A DNA stretch of 64,000 nt from Hymenobacter artigasi (lineage in GTDB: Bacteria; Bacteroidota; Bacteroidia; Cytophagales; Hymenobacteraceae). The position numbers were made by a program, and so were the translations under genes. The notes under the pieces were generated by a model. It made no database searches. It worked only from the letters and a program-made list of their open reading frames with translations, and was not told the DNA's origin. The stretch is from assembly GCF_012275535.1 (NCBI RefSeq), contig NZ_JAAVTK010000001.1, positions 620,001 to 684,000 of the forward strand. The letters are read 5' to 3'. This document shows positions 26,661 through 33,983 of the stretch, piece after piece. The stretch's first letter is position 1. Each line of letters starts with the position of its first letter.

Positions 26661-27200
26661 ATGCCCGTCGCCCGCCCCTTCAACATCCAGCAGTGGATTG
26701 ATGAACACCGCCATTTGCTGAAGCCCCCGGTGGGCAACCAACAGGTTTTCAAAGACAACCAGGATTTCATCGTGATGGTGGTGGGTGGTCCCAACGCCCG
26801 CAAAGACTACCACGTAGACGCCGGCGAGGAGCTGTTCTGGCAAATGGAAGGCACGATGACCGTCAAAATAATTGAGGACGGAAAGCCGGTCGATATCACC
26901 ATTGGCCCCGGCGAGATGTTTCTGCTGCCGCCCAACGTGCCCCACTCGCCGCGCCGCCCGGCCGGCACCGTGGGCCTGGTGCTGGAGCGCTACCGCACCG
27001 CCGGCGAGCTCGACGGCTTCCAGTGGTACTGCGAAAACTGCGGCAACAAGCTATATGAGGAATTTGCCGAAATCACCGACATCGTGACCCAGCTGCCGCC
27101 CATCATGAATGCCTTTTGGGCGAATGAGGACCTGCGCACCTGCAAGGTGTGCGGCACTTACATGGAGGCGCCCGCGCCGGTAGTGCCCGCCGCCGAATAA
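26661..27200 (+). CDS. 3-hydroxyanthranilate 3,4-dioxygenase
   Basis: This 179-residue cupin converts 3-hydroxyanthranilate to 2-amino-3-carboxymuconate semialdehyde. The iron ligands lie in DYHVDAGEELFWQMEG (His51 and the nearby Glu) and NVPHSPRRPAGTVGLV (His near 95). A C-terminal rubredoxin-like site has CENC and CKVC, as in the bacterial enzyme. The final EAPAPVVPAAE tail is extra. The next gene encodes the enzyme that uses its product. Confidence 0.95.
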   Translation: MPVARPFNIQQWIDEHRHLLKPPVGNQQVFKDNQDFIVMVVGGPNARKDYHVDAGEELFWQMEGTMTVKIIEDGKPVDITIGPGEMFLLPPNVPHSPRRPAGTVGLVLERYRTAGELDGFQWYCENCGNKLYEEFAEITDIVTQLPPIMNAFWANEDLRTCKVCGTYMEAPAPVVPAAE

Positions 27201-27205
27201 TTGCC

Positions 27206-27305
27206 GACCGTCATGCTGAGCGCAGTCGAAGCAGCTCTACTGTGTTAGTAATTAATTATTTACTGATGCGGTAGAGATGCTTCGGCTGCGCTCAGCATGA
27301 CGGTC
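27206..27305. repeat. GTCAT-family palindrome, 35-bp arms
   Basis: Arms 27206-27240 and 27271-27305 pair with few mismatches and carry GACCGTCATGCTGAGCGCAG at the outer end. The loop TGTGTTAGTAATT is shared with the copy at 61402. The right arm contains the first ATG of the ACMS decarboxylase frame. Confidence 0.88.
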
Positions 27306-28385
27306 TTTTTCCCCACCCCCCTCGCCCGCCCCGCCGTGTTGCCCCACCCTCTCAGCATCGACATCCATACCCACATTCTGCCCGAGCGCTGGCCCGACCT
27401 GCACGAGCGGTATGGCTACGGCGGCTTCATCCGGCTCGACCACCACAAGCCCTGCTGTGCCCGCATGATGCAGGACGACAAGTTCTTCCGCGAAGTGCAG
27501 GACAACTGCTGGGACCCGCAGGTGCGGATGCGCGAGTACGACCAGTTTGGCGTGCAGGTGCAGGTGCTGAGCACGGTGCCCGTGATGTTCAGCTACTGGG
27601 CCAAGCCGCTGGACTGCCTCGACCTCAGCCAGCTGCTGAACGACCATATTGCCGGGGTAGTGGCCCGCTACCCCACCCGCTTCGTGGGCCTGGGCACCAT
27701 CCCGATGCAGGCCCCCGACCTGGCCATCCGGGAGCTGGAGCGCTGCATGAAAATCGGGCTGGCCGGCGTGCAGATTGGCTCGCACGTGAACGACTGGAAC
27801 CTCGACGCGCCGGAATTATTCGAAATCTTCGCCGCCGCCGAGGAGCTGGGGGCCTGCGTATTTGTACACCCCTGGGACATGATGGCCCAGCAGAAAATGC
27901 CCAAATACTGGCTGCCCTGGCTGGTGGGCATGCCCGCCGAAAGTACGCTGGCGCTCTGCTCCCTCATCTTTGGCGGGGTGCTGGAGCGCCTGCCCAACCT
28001 GCGCGTGGCCGTGGCCCACGGCGGGGGTTCCTTCGCCAGCACCATCGGGCGCATCGAGCACGGCTGGCAGGTCCGGCCCGACCTGTGCGCCATCGACAAT
28101 CCGCACAACCCGCGCCGGTACCTCGGCAAGTTCTGGGTCGATTCGCTGGTGCACGACCCGCTCATGCTGGACTACCTGGTGAAAACCCTGGGAGCCGATA
28201 AAATCACGCTCGGCACCGACTACCCGTTTCCGCTGGGCGAGCTGGAGCCGGGCCAGCTCATCAAGTCCATGCCTTTTTCGGCCGACATTAAAGCCCGGAT
28301 GCTGGGCCAGAACGCGCTGGACTGGCTGGGGCTGACGGCCGGGCAGTTTGGGCACCCCTCTCATCCGTTGTCTGCCGCGCGGTAA
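27297..28385 (+). CDS. 2-amino-3-carboxymuconate-6-semialdehyde decarboxylase (ACMSD)
   Basis: The amidohydrolase-fold enzyme decarboxylates ACMS, steering it away from quinolinate. It has the metal-binding [45 protein letters not shown] and [12 protein letters not shown] motifs. The first ATG at 27297 lies in the arm of a palindrome and gives 362 residues, with 20 ahead of [10 protein letters not shown]; a GTG (27336) or TTG (27339) is a plausible true start. It acts directly after the hydroxyanthranilate dioxygenase. Confidence 0.94.
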
Positions 28386-28521: not shown

Positions 28522-30015
28522 TTGTCACAAGTCCTCCCTCCTGCCCCCGTCGCGCCCCAATCGGCGCGGAAGCGCGCTGCCGCCTGGTTTGCTCAGCACC
28601 CTTCCTGGGGGGCGGTTGTATTGCTCGGCATTCTCTTCGGTATTCACCTGTATACCAACCGGTACCACGAAAACCGGTACGATGCCCAGGGCTACTGGGA
28701 ATTGGCCAATAAATACTGGAGCACCGGCGGCTTCGAGTTGCTGTCCTTCGATAATATCCTGCGGGGCTATTTATTTCCCCTGATAATTTCGCCTTTCACC
28801 CTGCTCACGGCCTACTATGGCTGGGAGCCGATTAACATCACCCGGGGCTTTGGGCTCGTCACGGCGGTGCTGCTGTTTGGCGTGGTGGGGCCCGGCTTGT
28901 GGCGCGCGCTGCGCGGGCCATTGGCCCCGGCCGTGCCGCTGGGCCGCCGGATGGTATTTGGCCTGCTGGGCTTTTTGATGTGGCGCGACTATTTCAACTT
29001 TGCCCTCACCGATTTTCCGGCGTTACTGGCCCTGCTGGCGGGCATCTGGGCATTATTGCGGCACCGGCGGTTAGTTTGGGGCGGCTTATTAGCCGGTATC
29101 GCGGTGGCGGCGGCCCTCAATTTTCGGCCCGTGTATGCGGCCACCCTGCCATTGGTGCTGATATTATGCGTGTGGCCCCGCGAGCGGCCCGTTACGGGTG
29201 GCGGGTGGCTCGGGGCGCTGCATTGGGTGCGGGGAGCCACTTTTCTGTTCGGCGTCGGCCTGGTGCTGGCTCCCCAGCTGCTCATCAATCAGGCGCATTT
29301 CAATAGTAATAGCCCGCTGGTGCTCACGGCCCCGCCCGACAGCCCCAACCTGTACCTCTCGCAGGTGCACGGGGGGCTGTTCATCCAGAAATACGAAACC
29401 ACGGTGGGGGTAGACTATCCCACTCCCAGCGTGGTGTTTCGGGATGCCACCGGCGATGCCCTGGCCACCGAGGCCCAACTGCCGCCCGACATGTCGTTTG
29501 CGGACTACCTGGCCATGGCCGGCCACTACCCGGGGCCGCTGCTGGCGCTCTGGCTCCGGCACCTTTTCAACGGGCTCGACCTGCAATACCCCACCCCCTA
29601 CCCGCAGGCCATATTTGTCAACACCTTTGCCCTGGCCCTCACCAACTACCTGGTGCTCATTACCGGGCTATTGGTGCTGGTTCGGCTGGGCTGGCGGCGG
29701 CTGGCATGGTCCCGCGTCCCGGCCATTATCGTGTTGCTCATTTTGCTGGGGCCGTGCGCCGCTACCTTGCCGGTGGTGATGGAATGCCGGTTTCTGATGC
29801 CGCTGCACCTGCTGCTGTGCGCCATGGTGGCCTTTGGGGCCCATCCGCTGCGGCAATGGCGGGCGGCTTCGCTGGGCCGCCGGGCGGCAGGCTTTACTCT
29901 CTACGGGCTGTTGGTGGTGGGTAGTTTTGCGGTTTCGGCCAGCACCCAGCGCCAGCTGGAAGCCAAGCCCCGCCTGCTTTTCAAGTGGCAGGAGCCCGTG
30001 CCGGGGTCGTGGTAG
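28522..30015 (+). CDS. GT-C-like membrane protein, first of two paralogues
   Basis: The open frame extends upstream to 28348 inside the ACMSD gene, but the TTG at 28522 gives 497 residues that align end to end with the 492-residue paralogue at 30219. Shared landmarks are YDAQGYWELANKYWSTGGF, FDNILRGYLFPL, FRPVYAATLPLVL, FIQKYETTVGVDYP and FNGLDLQYPTPY. About ten membrane segments fit a GT-C-like or related carrier role. The start is uncertain. A decayed kynureninase piece follows, so this gene belongs to a duplicated unit. Confidence 0.7.
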   Translation: MSQVLPPAPVAPQSARKRAAAWFAQHPSWGAVVLLGILFGIHLYTNRYHENRYDAQGYWELANKYWSTGGFELLSFDNILRGYLFPLIISPFTLLTAYYGWEPINITRGFGLVTAVLLFGVVGPGLWRALRGPLAPAVPLGRRMVFGLLGFLMWRDYFNFALTDFPALLALLAGIWALLRHRRLVWGGLLAGIAVAAALNFRPVYAATLPLVLILCVWPRERPVTGGGWLGALHWVRGATFLFGVGLVLAPQLLINQAHFNSNSPLVLTAPPDSPNLYLSQVHGGLFIQKYETTVGVDYPTPSVVFRDATGDALATEAQLPPDMSFADYLAMAGHYPGPLLALWLRHLFNGLDLQYPTPYPQAIFVNTFALALTNYLVLITGLLVLVRLGWRRLAWSRVPAIIVLLILLGPCAATLPVVMECRFLMPLHLLLCAMVAFGAHPLRQWRAASLGRRAAGFTLYGLLVVGSFAVSASTQRQLEAKPRLLFKWQEPVPGSW

Positions 30016-30061
30016 GCCATATTTTGTTAGCATCAGCCCGGCCTTTACCCCGACCTTTACA

Positions 30062-30190
30062 CCCCTGGAGTAGTGGTGATGAACACCCTGACTGTGAATC
30101 CGCACCTGCTGCTAATATTGTTTTACTGCCCCACCAGTGCCCTACAATATTTTGATGGAAGGCGGCACGCTCCCATCGGACCAGTACGCT
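30062..30190 (+). pseudogene. Kynureninase relic (internal fragment)
   Basis: This stretch aligns with bases 32045-32174 of the intact kynureninase gene. GTGGTGATGAAC, GCACCTGCTGCT, TGATGGAAGGCGGC and CGGACCAGTACGC recur in the same order and spacing. Three missing bases break the frame, and no start or PLP lysine region remains. It lies directly after the first membrane paralogue, as the intact gene lies after the second, which marks it as the remnant of a tandem duplicate. Confidence 0.88.
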
Positions 30191-30218
30191 TGACTTAATG
30201 TGAATAACGCCTTTTAGA

Positions 30219-31697
30219 ATGCTACCCAATTCCGCTGCAACCACTTCCCCTTCCCGTGTCACTGCCTGGGTCGGCCGCCATCCGGGCGGGCTGGCCTGGC
30301 TGGTCCTGACCCTCCTGTTTTCCATTTATTTACTTAGCAGTGAGCCGCTACCTATTATCTACGATGCGAAAGAGTACTGGCAGCTAGCCGAGAAATACCG
30401 GGCCGGCGGAGATTTCCGCTTTCTGGCTTTCGACAGCGTGTTGCGGGGGTACCTGTTCCCGTTGCTGCTCTCGGGGTTGGTTTGGCTGCTTCAGCACGTC
30501 GCCCTGACCCCGCTCGATTTGACCAGGGCCATGGGGGCGGTTACGGCGGGCCTGCTCTTTGGCGTGGTGATGCCCGGCCTGTGGCGGGCGCTCCAGCCGA
30601 TGGGCAGCCCACCAGTGCCCCTGGGCCGGCGCCTGCTGCTTGGCGCCCTGGGCTTTGTGTTCTGGCGCGGTTATTTCAATTTTCCGCTCAGCGATTTTCC
30701 GGCCCTGCTGGCACTGGCCGGCGGCCTGTGGATGGCCGTGCGGAGCCGGTCGGTGGGGAGCGGGCTGCTGGTAGGTCTGTGCGTGGCGGCGGCGGCTAAT
30801 TTCCGGCCGGTATATGCGGCCACTCTGCCGCTAGTGCTTCTGCTCAGCCTGTGGCCCCAGCCCGGGGCCGCCCGGCCCCAATGGCTGGCCTGGCTCCGTG
30901 GGCTGGCCGTGGTAGCGGGCATGGCCCTGGTAATGGCTCCCCAGGCAGCCGTCAACCAAGAGCATTTTGGCGTTCGCAGCCCATTTGTGCTCACCGACCG
31001 GCCCGGGAAGCCCAGCTTATATCTTAACCAGCTGGAATGGGGGCTGCGCTACCAGAAATACGAAACCAGCATAGCCGCCGACTACCCGATTCCGCCCATG
31101 GTTTTTGGGAGTAGAGAAGGGTATCAGCTGTGGACAGATAGTGGCCTGAAAAGACTAACCACCTATGCGCAGTACGGGCAAATTGCCCAATCGGCCCCGT
31201 TCACGGTGGCTTCCATATGGTTGGTCCACTTGTTCAATGGCCTGGATTTACAGTATACCACCCCGTACGTTCAGCGGGTTTATGCTTCTACTTGGGGCCT
31301 GGCCTGGTTGAATTACACGGTTTTATTTGGGGGCTTCTGTGTGCTCGCCAGTCGGGTGCGCCGTCGGCCCTGGCGCAGCTATGTGCCCATTGCGCTGGTG
31401 TTGGCCGCCTTGCTCGGCCCGTGCCTGGCTACGCTGCCGGTGGCCATGGAATGCCGCTTTCTATTGCCGATACACCTCCTTCTTTACGCGGGCTTTGCGT
31501 TTGGAGCGCAGCCGCTGGCCTTCTGGCGGCGTAGCGACCTGCGTCAGCGCCTGGCCGGCGTGGCCCTGTATGCCACCGTGGTAGTGAGCTGCTTCATCGT
31601 ATCGACCAACATGCAGCTCAGCCTGGACAAAGCTCCGCGCTACGTTTTCAAATGGCAGCGGCCGGAAGTTGGGCCGCCAAAAGTCGTGACGTGGTAA
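30219..31697 (+). CDS. GT-C-like membrane protein, second of two paralogues
   Basis: This 492-residue protein has about ten membrane segments. It matches the 28522 protein throughout: YDAKEYWQLAEKYRAGGDF, FDSVLRGYLFPLLLSG, FRPVYAATLPLVLLLSLWP, YQKYETSIAADYPIPP, FNGLDLQYTTPY and a C-terminal FKWQ. An early acidic residue (YDAKEYW) fits the GT-C pattern, but no characterised family is recognised. It directly precedes kynureninase. A glycan role fits the region; a pathway transporter is an alternative. Confidence 0.72.
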   Translation: MLPNSAATTSPSRVTAWVGRHPGGLAWLVLTLLFSIYLLSSEPLPIIYDAKEYWQLAEKYRAGGDFRFLAFDSVLRGYLFPLLLSGLVWLLQHVALTPLDLTRAMGAVTAGLLFGVVMPGLWRALQPMGSPPVPLGRRLLLGALGFVFWRGYFNFPLSDFPALLALAGGLWMAVRSRSVGSGLLVGLCVAAAANFRPVYAATLPLVLLLSLWPQPGAARPQWLAWLRGLAVVAGMALVMAPQAAVNQEHFGVRSPFVLTDRPGKPSLYLNQLEWGLRYQKYETSIAADYPIPPMVFGSREGYQLWTDSGLKRLTTYAQYGQIAQSAPFTVASIWLVHLFNGLDLQYTTPYVQRVYASTWGLAWLNYTVLFGGFCVLASRVRRRPWRSYVPIALVLAALLGPCLATLPVAMECRFLLPIHLLLYAGFAFGAQPLAFWRRSDLRQRLAGVALYATVVVSCFIVSTNMQLSLDKAPRYVFKWQRPEVGPPKVVTW

Positions 31698-31761
31698 CCC
31701 CCTGCCAAACAACGCTATTTTTTGCCCGCCTCCCGTTTCGGCGGCTTGTTACTACTTCGCC

Positions 31762-33045
31762 ATGAATTCTCTAGTTCCCACCACCACCCACCCCGACGCT
31801 GCCGACCCGCTGGCCGCTTTCCGCCAGGAATTTCACCTGCCGCCCGGCCCCGATGGGCAGCCCTGCGCCTACTTCTGCGGCAACTCCTTGGGCCTGATGC
31901 CGAAAGCTGCCCGCGCCGCCGTGGAGCAGGAGTTTGAAAGCTGGGAGCGGCTGGGCGTGGAAGGCCATTTCCAGGCCCCCTCGTTCTGGATGCACTTTCA
32001 CGACACCCTCACCGAGGCCACGGCCCGGCTGGTGGGCGCTCTGCCCCTGGAGGTGGTGGTGATGAACAACCTGACCGTGAACCTGCACCTGCTGCTGGTG
32101 TCGTTTTACCGCCCCACGGGCTCGCGCTACAAGATTCTGATGGAAGGCGGCGCGTTCCCGTCCGACCAGTACGCCATCGAGAGCCAGGCCCGCCTGCACG
32201 GCCTCGACCCCGCCGAGGCCATTGTGGAGCTGGTGCCGCGCCCCGGCGAGCACACCCTGCGCACCGAGGACATTGAAGCCAAAATCGCGGAGCTGGGCGA
32301 CTCACTGGCCACCGTCCTCATCGGCGGGGTGAACTACTACACCGGGCAGGCCTTCGACATGGCCGCCATTGCCCGGGCGGGCCACGCCGTGGGGGCCTAC
32401 GTGGGCTTCGACCTGGCCCATGCCGCCGGCAATCTGGAGCTGCACCTGCACGACTGGGACGTGGATTTTGCCTGCTGGTGCACCTATAAGTACCTCAACT
32501 CCGGCCCCGGCGGCACCTCGGGCGTGTTTGTGCACGAGCGGTTTGCCAACCGGCCCGACCTTGTGCGGCTGGCCGGCTGGTGGGGGCACGATGCGTCCGT
32601 ACGCTTCCAGATGAAAAAAGGCTTCCGGCCCATGGCCGGCGCGGCCGGCTGGCAGCTCTCCAACGCCCAGATTTTCCCAATGGCCATTCACCGCGCCAGC
32701 CTCGAAATCGTGGACCGGGCCGGGGGCATGGCCGCGCTGCGCCGCAAAAGCGAGCAGCTCACCGCCCGCCTCGAAAGCCTCATCCACGGCCTGGGCCTGC
32801 CGGCCGATAAGCTCGAAATTATCACGCCCGCCGACCCCACCCAGCGCGGCTGCCAGCTCTCGGTGCTGGTGCACGAGCGCGGGCGCGAGCTGTTCGATTT
32901 CCTGGCCGCCCAGGGCATCATCGCCGACTGGCGCGAGCCCAATGTCATCCGCCTGGCACCCGTGCCGCTCTATAATTCGTTTGAGGACGTGGAACGGGTG
33001 GGCGCGGCGCTTACCCAATGGGTGAATGAGCGAATGGGTGAATGA
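31762..33045 (+). CDS. kynU: Kynureninase
   Basis: This 427-residue PLP enzyme hydrolyses kynurenine or 3-hydroxykynurenine to anthranilate or 3-hydroxyanthranilate plus alanine. It shows YFCGNSLGLMPKAARAAVEQE, GVNYYTGQAFDMAAI, GFDLAHAAGNLELHLHDWDV and the PLP lysine in CTYKYLNSGPGG, followed by RPMAGAAGWQLSN. Its product feeds the dioxygenase at 26661. The last eight or so residues (VNERMGE and stop) are encoded by the left arm of the palindrome at 33016, so the natural C-terminus may have been altered by that insertion. Confidence 0.96.
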   Translation: MNSLVPTTTHPDAADPLAAFRQEFHLPPGPDGQPCAYFCGNSLGLMPKAARAAVEQEFESWERLGVEGHFQAPSFWMHFHDTLTEATARLVGALPLEVVVMNNLTVNLHLLLVSFYRPTGSRYKILMEGGAFPSDQYAIESQARLHGLDPAEAIVELVPRPGEHTLRTEDIEAKIAELGDSLATVLIGGVNYYTGQAFDMAAIARAGHAVGAYVGFDLAHAAGNLELHLHDWDVDFACWCTYKYLNSGPGGTSGVFVHERFANRPDLVRLAGWWGHDASVRFQMKKGFRPMAGAAGWQLSNAQIFPMAIHRASLEIVDRAGGMAALRRKSEQLTARLESLIHGLGLPADKLEIITPADPTQRGCQLSVLVHERGRELFDFLAAQGIIADWREPNVIRLAPVPLYNSFEDVERVGAALTQWVNERMGE

Positions 33046-33113
33046 GCGACTATTTTTCTCGTACATCCCACAAACTCATTCACCCATTCACTCATTCACC
33101 CATTCACCCATTG
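33016..33113. repeat. Word-repeat inverted repeat overlapping the kynU stop
   Basis: The left arm (33016-33046) and right arm (33075-33113) pair; the right arm has one extra 8-base unit. Both are made of GAATGGGTGAATGAG-type words. The kynU stop (33043-33045) lies in the left arm and the next gene starts four bases after the right arm. Confidence 0.85.
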
Positions 33114-33116
33114 ATA

Positions 33117-33815
33117 ATGGAAGATTACGCCGCTAAGATGCTGCTCAAGACCGACGCGGCCCTGCGCGAATACGTGACCGGCCATGTCCAGTACCGCGAG
33201 GCCGCCGTGCTCGCCGCGCTCGATGAGCTGCGCCGCCGGGGCCAGCCCGCCCCCGAGGAAGCCGCCCTGCGTCCCAGCCTCGAGGCGGGGGCCGCCGCAC
33301 AGCGCCCCCTCGATGAAGCCGCCGCCGAAGCCGCGCAGGAGCGCACCCGGCCGGCCGAAACCCCCGACGCTGTTGAACCCGACGAAACTGCGCCCGCGCT
33401 GTATTCGCCGGTGACCATCGTGCTGTTTTCCGTTCCGTTCACCTTTATCGCAGGCGGCGTGCTGCTGGGCCTCAACCTGTGGCGGCTGGGCCGCAAGCGG
33501 GCCTTACTGGGGCTGGTGGCTTTCATTGTGGCCTATCTGCTGGCCGGGGTGCTGGCCCTGAGCTGGGCCCTGCCCCGCTACGGCCTGAGCCCGTGGTACG
33601 GGCCGCTGTTTAACCTGCCCGCTATTCTGGCTTATGTGCTGTGGTTCTGGCCGCGCTACGTGGGGCAGCCCGTATACCGCAGCCGCAGCTGGCTGCCGCC
33701 GCTGCTGGTCTGCTTTGCCCTGGCCTACGGGGCCCAGCGCTTCCAATCCTATATGCTGAAGCAGCAGCCGAAGGAAATGCAGCAGGAATTTGAGCGCATG
33801 ATGCCGAAGGAGTAA
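33117..33815 (+). CDS. Hypothetical membrane protein, four predicted spans
   Basis: From ATG 33117 the protein has 232 residues; an earlier ATG would read through the palindrome. Residues 1-95 are soluble, helical and charged (TDAALREYVTGHVQYREAAV). Four hydrophobic segments then begin with VTIVLFSVPFTFIAGGVLLG. The C-terminal LKQQPKEMQQEFERMMPKE is charged. I do not recognise the family. It follows kynU on the same strand. Confidence 0.7.
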   Translation: MEDYAAKMLLKTDAALREYVTGHVQYREAAVLAALDELRRRGQPAPEEAALRPSLEAGAAAQRPLDEAAAEAAQERTRPAETPDAVEPDETAPALYSPVTIVLFSVPFTFIAGGVLLGLNLWRLGRKRALLGLVAFIVAYLLAGVLALSWALPRYGLSPWYGPLFNLPAILAYVLWFWPRYVGQPVYRSRSWLPPLLVCFALAYGAQRFQSYMLKQQPKEMQQEFERMMPKE

Positions 33816-33858: not shown

Positions 33859-33952
33859 CGTCATGCAGGGCGGAGCGAAGCATCTTTACTGCTCAATGCA
33901 ATCCAATTGTCAGGATTAGTATTGAGGTAAAGATGCTCCGCTCTGCATGACG
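33859..33952. repeat. GTCAT-family palindrome
   Basis: The left arm (33859-33889) begins CGTCATGCAGGGCGGAGCG and pairs with the right arm (33927-33952), which is five bases shorter. The loop GCAATCCAATT...AGGATTA is shared with the copy at 60611. It lies between convergent genes. Confidence 0.85.
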
Positions 33953-33983
33953 ACCGTTTTTACTACGGCTACTTTTGCACCAC

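Follow-up and report, generated by a model that had tools for sequence, protein, structure and literature searches.

A kynureninase relic between two membrane-protein genes of Hymenobacter artigasi as the probable scar of gene stacking at a metabolic locus

The window analysed here is a stretch of 64,000 nucleotides (nt) of the Hymenobacter artigasi genome (contig NZ_JAAVTK010000001.1, positions 620,001 to 684,000), in which two homologous membrane-protein genes, mem1 (28522..30015) and mem2 (30219..31697), stand ahead of an intact kynureninase gene, kynU (31762..33045), with a broken piece of kynU (30059..30190) between them; all four lie on the forward strand. A pseudogene between two paralogues is naturally read as the trace of a tandem duplication, and the original prediction took this arrangement for a two-gene mem-kynU unit that had been duplicated and had then lost one kynU. 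Our results correct this natural but misleading reading. It is probable that two separately evolved genes of the GT-C type were stacked in one slot upstream of kynU, and that the partial duplication of kynU is the scar of the second addition. A short relic can in this way preserve the succession of insertions into a metabolic locus.

The observation behind the original prediction was confirmed, and its interpretation was partly supported. With the whole genome searched, 30062-30189 matched 32044-32174 within kynU at 82% identity over 131 nt (E 6.6e-30), and a blastn rescan of the gene against its own locus gave E 9.3e-32; the local alignment score of relic and kynU was 146, and none of 300 block shuffles scored above 29. 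The relic, whose limits had been predicted correctly within a few bases, corresponds to kynU nt 283-413 and is truncated at both ends. Relative to kynU it carries a one-base and a two-base deletion, so that three bases are lost and the reading frame is broken, as had been claimed. The order of the four parts and the homology of mem1 and mem2 along their length (50% identity over 485 aligned columns) also held. Both mem genes are open, and between G000 (the genome of the window) and the related genome G029 they differ at codon positions 1/2/3 by 4/2/12% (mem1) and 2/1/8% (mem2). Because second-position change between these two is low (2.2% and 1.0%), both genes look constrained, in line with the prediction that they had stayed intact.

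The stretch 30016-30218 was used as a query against 120 genomes of the genus. Matches were found in 110 genomes, and a match to the whole stretch at this place in three, G000, G029 and G108 (H. siberiensis), with the whole-stretch matches in G029 and G108 being 87% identical. Both relatives carry the same kynU-derived relic in the corresponding position. The one-base deletion is common to the relics of G000 and G029, which makes it probable that the relic was broken before the two lineages separated. Between relic and kynU the difference is 18-20%; between the relic of G000 and that of G029 it is 15%, equal to the third-position divergence of rpoB (15% each). In a tree of 130 columns, the placement of the relic was unsupported (47/0). 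From the matching genomes a set of 111 kynU loci was obtained, comprising the window and 110 loci from 109 other genomes (G036 gives two), and every one of them has a kynU match. When five cluster genes (SDR, the gene of 3-hydroxyanthranilate 3,4-dioxygenase (HAAO), the ACMSD-like gene, kynU and the gene p257), each where it occurs, were compared with their own loci by blastn in the 111 loci, kynU relics were found in G000, G029, G108 and G088 (H. negativus) only. The same comparison gave two short p257 matches (L122, L194).

The two homologous pairs are of very different divergence, since mem1 and mem2 differ at 41/31/56% of codon positions 1/2/3, and the 56% at third positions stands against 18-20% between relic and kynU. 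Parts duplicated together should be sisters of equal age, and those of the mem-kynU unit are not, which speaks against the predicted origin of both pairs by one tandem duplication. Phylogenetic trees were built from the best-matching mem loci, their tandem partners and some kynU-locus genes, a subset of all matches in the genus; the mem gene of G063 is split in two frames, and its first part alone was used. In a 38-row tree, the kynU-adjacent mem genes formed one clade (97/96) and mem1 grouped with the gene of G024 (100/99), with no resolved place for mem2. Joining mem1 and mem2, the pairing named in the original prediction, in one clade cost 36.6 log-likelihood units and was rejected (approximately unbiased (AU) test, applied after a mem tree had been inspected, p = 0.00094). 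A 50-row tree included, in addition, tandem pairs of mem genes located at other places in the genus; there the mem1-G024 grouping recurred (the AU test applies to the 38-row tree only), mem2 joined G067, G127 and G063 (91/92), and the slot mem clade had support of 99/95. The tandem mem-family pairs from elsewhere (L199, L200 and other non-kynU loci) fell outside the mem1/mem2 clade. The rpoB gene was found in 29 of 30 chosen genomes, G011 being the exception. In rpoB, G024 and G029 are at similar distances from G000 (6.3% and 5.5% difference), yet mem1 is only 61% identical to the G024 gene and 95% identical to the G029 gene; the slot genes are therefore not simply co-inherited with the genomes.

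The slot lies between an ACMSD-like amidohydrolase gene (27297..28385, forward strand), which forms its left border, and kynU. Of the 111 loci, 78 have this gene ahead of kynU within the sequence fetched, and the slot is empty in 53 of these (fewer than 500 bases and none of the probe genes) and occupied in 25. Twelve occupied slots hold a gene for a small protein and one for a membrane protein (c6+mannC), two hold the c6+mannC pair twice (G003, G082) and one holds the pair with another membrane gene (G088). A single mem gene ahead of kynU, the single-copy state that the original prediction had proposed to look for in related genomes, occurs in four scattered genomes (G024, G067, G127 and, with the split gene, G063). 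Three slots carry mem1+mem2, two another membrane gene, and one (G126) is unclear. On an rpoB tree of the 29 genomes, 5 changes are required to account for the presence of mem and 10 for slot content. A separate kynU relic was found in G088 (L092), covering about nt 26-180 at 85% identity and located some 1650 to 1500 bases ahead of kynU, in the order c6+mannC, kynU relic, another membrane gene, conserved leader and intact kynU. The two inserts of G088 belong to different protein clusters, so that a duplication of a single unit does not account for this locus. Paired inserts with a piece of kynU left between them have thus arisen more than once, in G088 independently. Stacked divergent c6+mannC pairs were seen in L138 (G082) and L142 (G003), with mannC 60-62% and 37-45% identical to that of G011, and blastn against their own loci found no kynU relic between these pairs.

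The bases between mem1 and the relic also have counterparts at kynU, in its leader. The 43 bases that begin right at the mem1 stop (30016..30058, forward strand) match the kynU leaders of G088 (85%), G025, G073, G022, G089, G097, G019, G072, G131 and G104, eight of which have an empty slot, and this homology extends the relic region upstream to about 30016. The relic leader is not similar to the spacer between mem2 and kynU (score 12, maximum of 300 shuffles 22). The present kynU leader (31698..31761, forward strand) is not the conserved one and, among the fetched leaders outside G000, matches only those of G029 and G108 at a threshold of E 0.1. The old kynU leader appears to have been stranded ahead of the relic in this lineage.

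The Bacteroidetes-type -7 element is given as TANNTTTG (PMC6847099). Within 75 bases around the kynU start, the strict form TANNTTTR was found in 65 of 110 loci versus 31 of 2200 random upstream control windows, and the loose form NANNTTTR in 88 of 110 loci versus 152 of 2200. The relic leader carries GACCTTTA, a loose -7 element, and the present kynU leader of G000 contains no NANNTTTR. Of 7 loci that bear a mem gene, 6 have no such loose form, whereas 63 of the 68 loci whose slot is empty or contains c6/mannC do have one (Fisher p = 1.5e-5, a value that overstates the difference because the loci share ancestry); the loose form occurs in 22 of 32 loci lacking the ACMSD-like gene and in 2/2 and 0/1 of the remaining groups. 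We regard 30016..30058 as the probable old kynU promoter. With a -7 element this near to the start of kynU, the mRNA leaders would be very short; in Flavobacterium johnsoniae, most mRNA leaders exceed 10 nt (PMC6847099).

In the scheme that we favour, the slot would be a place at which different Hymenobacter lineages gain or exchange GT-C-like membrane genes. The common ancestor of G000, G029 and G108 would have carried mem1 there, ending right at the kynU leader, and the long-diverged GT-C gene mem2 would then have been added inside kynU. One border within kynU would have produced the partial duplication and a complete kynU behind mem2, and the other, non-homologous border would have cut off the old kynU start at nt 413; the stranded piece would later have lost its start, leaving the leader and about 131 nt. 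We infer that the insertion combined a homologous exchange with an illegitimate one, in the manner of homology-facilitated illegitimate recombination, and likewise infer the order of events and an origin of the inserted DNA in another Hymenobacter. In homology-facilitated illegitimate recombination, homologous exchange takes place at one end and illegitimate joining at the other (PMC3240628); there it was measured in the laboratory, whereas here it is read from an old junction. A process akin to it has been proposed for the sequential displacement of effector-immunity modules of the type VI secretion system in Vibrio cholerae (PMC5361080). In that case orphan immunity genes, which are likely to be beneficial, were stranded, whereas at the present locus a broken metabolic gene was stranded and GT-C-like membrane proteins were added.

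The junction itself, with the relic ending at kynU nt 413 beside mem2 and a complete kynU behind mem2, fits a scheme with one homologous border. Several points weigh against stacking by such an insertion. Neither parent state was found in the 111 loci: no locus has mem1 followed by the conserved leader and an intact kynU, the arrangement expected before the insertion, and none offers a close donor for mem2. Donor sequence in kynU was not detected in a tree of kynU nt 1-300, and the donor may be unsampled. In that tree, the 5' 300 nt of kynU of G000, G029 and G108 fell in a 12-row group (97/95) with G011, G022, G073, G088, G089, G131, G097, G086 and G024, and did not group with G063, G067 and G127. 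The single clade of kynU-adjacent mem genes (97/96; 99/95) is also expected from old paralogy, and the placement of mem2 is moderately supported in the 50-row tree and unresolved in the 38-row tree. Composition says little, as G+C content at third codon positions is 0.73 in mem2, 0.79 in mem1, 0.81 in HAAO and 0.86 in kynU. A donor-derived 5' end of kynU was looked for in two ways: segment distances between G000 and G029 range from 2% to 10.5% with no clear donor, and trees of kynU nt 1-300 and 421-1277 (33 fetched genomes) gave no sign of one.

An ancient tandem mem-kynU duplication in the ancestor of the slot carriers, with both kynU copies long kept, one decayed recently and one or both units lost in other lineages, is unlikely. 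The one clade of kynU-adjacent mem genes is what old paralogues with losses would give. By three-point arithmetic the relic stem is about 9% from kynU, and because this is no less than the between-species kynU distances there, a second kynU could have been functional for long. However, the two-copy state that the original prediction had also proposed to look for in relatives was not seen, as gene-against-locus blastn found no second kynU besides the relics in the 111 loci. Two kynU matches occurred only in G000, G029, G108 and G036 among the matches listed (best 6 per genome), and those of G036 lie on separate contigs of a genome with 6% contamination. Many separate losses would also be required. 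Furthermore, mem1 is about 15 times further from the G024 gene than from the G029 gene (tree path 0.79 versus 0.051) although the rpoB distances are similar, and the relic leader resembles leaders of relatives that mostly have no insert.

It is rather improbable, though compatible with the stacking of two genes, that the relic has been kept for a job, with the old kynU promoter and the relic serving as promoter and 5' leader of mem2-kynU. The present kynU leader is without a -7 element while the relic leader retains a loose one, and between G000 and G029 there are 5 substitutions in 74 flanking positions versus 17 in 129 positions of the relic body. This difference is not significant (p = 0.24), however, and the relic body diverges about as much as rpoB third positions, as expected without selection. 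The -7 element is not universal, since among the loci lacking the ACMSD-like gene it is present in 22 of 32, and mem2 may have its own promoter. A recent tandem duplication of the mem-kynU unit in this lineage, followed by very fast mem divergence, accords with the order of parts and the homology of both pairs but was rejected as highly improbable on the age mismatch (56% versus 18% between relic and kynU), on the tree (AU p = 0.00094) and on the dissimilarity of the stretch after mem1 to the spacer after mem2.

Neither mem1 nor mem2 matched a Pfam or NCBIfam family model, and mem2 had no match in plasmid records. An AlphaFold2 model of mem2 built from 22 sequences (predicted local distance difference test (pLDDT) 85.3, predicted template modelling score (pTM) 0.87) found its best solved match in ArnT (5f15; Z 18.0, root-mean-square deviation 3.8, 305 residues), followed by AglB (3waj; Z 17.7, 325 residues) and ALG12 (9s6t; Z 16.9, 318 residues). 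The ten best matches were ArnT, AglB, ALG12, ALG3, glycosylphosphatidylinositol mannosyltransferase I and oligosaccharyltransferase (OST) subunits, with Z of 15.4-18.0; the search tool gives about 14 as the typical best Z for mostly helical models that have no clear match. Foldseek gave one match at E <= 0.001 (human OST-B, 4.8e-4), with TM-scores to solved chains of up to about 0.47. The model has the polytopic membrane fold shared with ArnT/PMT/STT3, and a GT-C fold is therefore predicted for mem2; the protein differs from the GT-C enzymes in its low sequence identity (13%) and in matching no family model. GT-C enzymes have a conserved acidic residue in the first extracytoplasmic loop. Asp49 of mem2, an invariant column of the 22-sequence alignment that follows the first long helix of the model, is a putative counterpart. 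Judged by fold and homology, the most likely role of mem1 and mem2 would be to move a sugar from a lipid carrier onto a surface molecule.

We put forward, tentatively, a wider possibility, namely that the kynurenine (NAD-pathway) cluster provides the homology arms for fast swapping, and at times stacking, of slot-specific GT-C surface-glycosylation genes between species, with kynU relics as scars. Such an exchange slot in Hymenobacter would be likened to capsule or effector-module switching. Should the slot prove to be a genuine site of exchange, it would be an example of core metabolic genes serving as the arms by which cell-surface genes are traded; the loss of the kynU promoter would then be a side effect. 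Among the papers available for searching, none names both Hymenobacter and kynureninase.

The remaining features of the locus lie on the forward strand. HAAO (26661..27200; NCBIfam NF009763, 255.3 bits, cut-off 220; Pfam PF06052) is the upstream part of the kynurenine cluster. The amidohydrolase that follows it matched Pfam PF04909 (146.3 bits) and no NCBIfam model at E 0.01, and its name ACMSD was taken from its neighbourhood. The start codon of mem1 is uncertain, as the frame is open already from 28348. The kynU product scored 431.5 bits against TIGR01814, above the equivalog cut-off of 246.4. Downstream of kynU lies p257 (33120..33815), a frequent right-hand neighbour whose open reading frame cluster is present in 89 of the 111 kynU loci; its product matched no Pfam or NCBIfam model. 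An inverted repeat was seen by eye behind p257 at 33860-33953 (gtcatgcag...gcatctttac / gtaaagatgc...ctgcatgac); a similar stretch precedes kynU in G097, and it is possibly a dispersed repeat. Short tandem repeats of the type cccattcactcattcacc were also seen by eye around the kynU stop codon (33018-33115).
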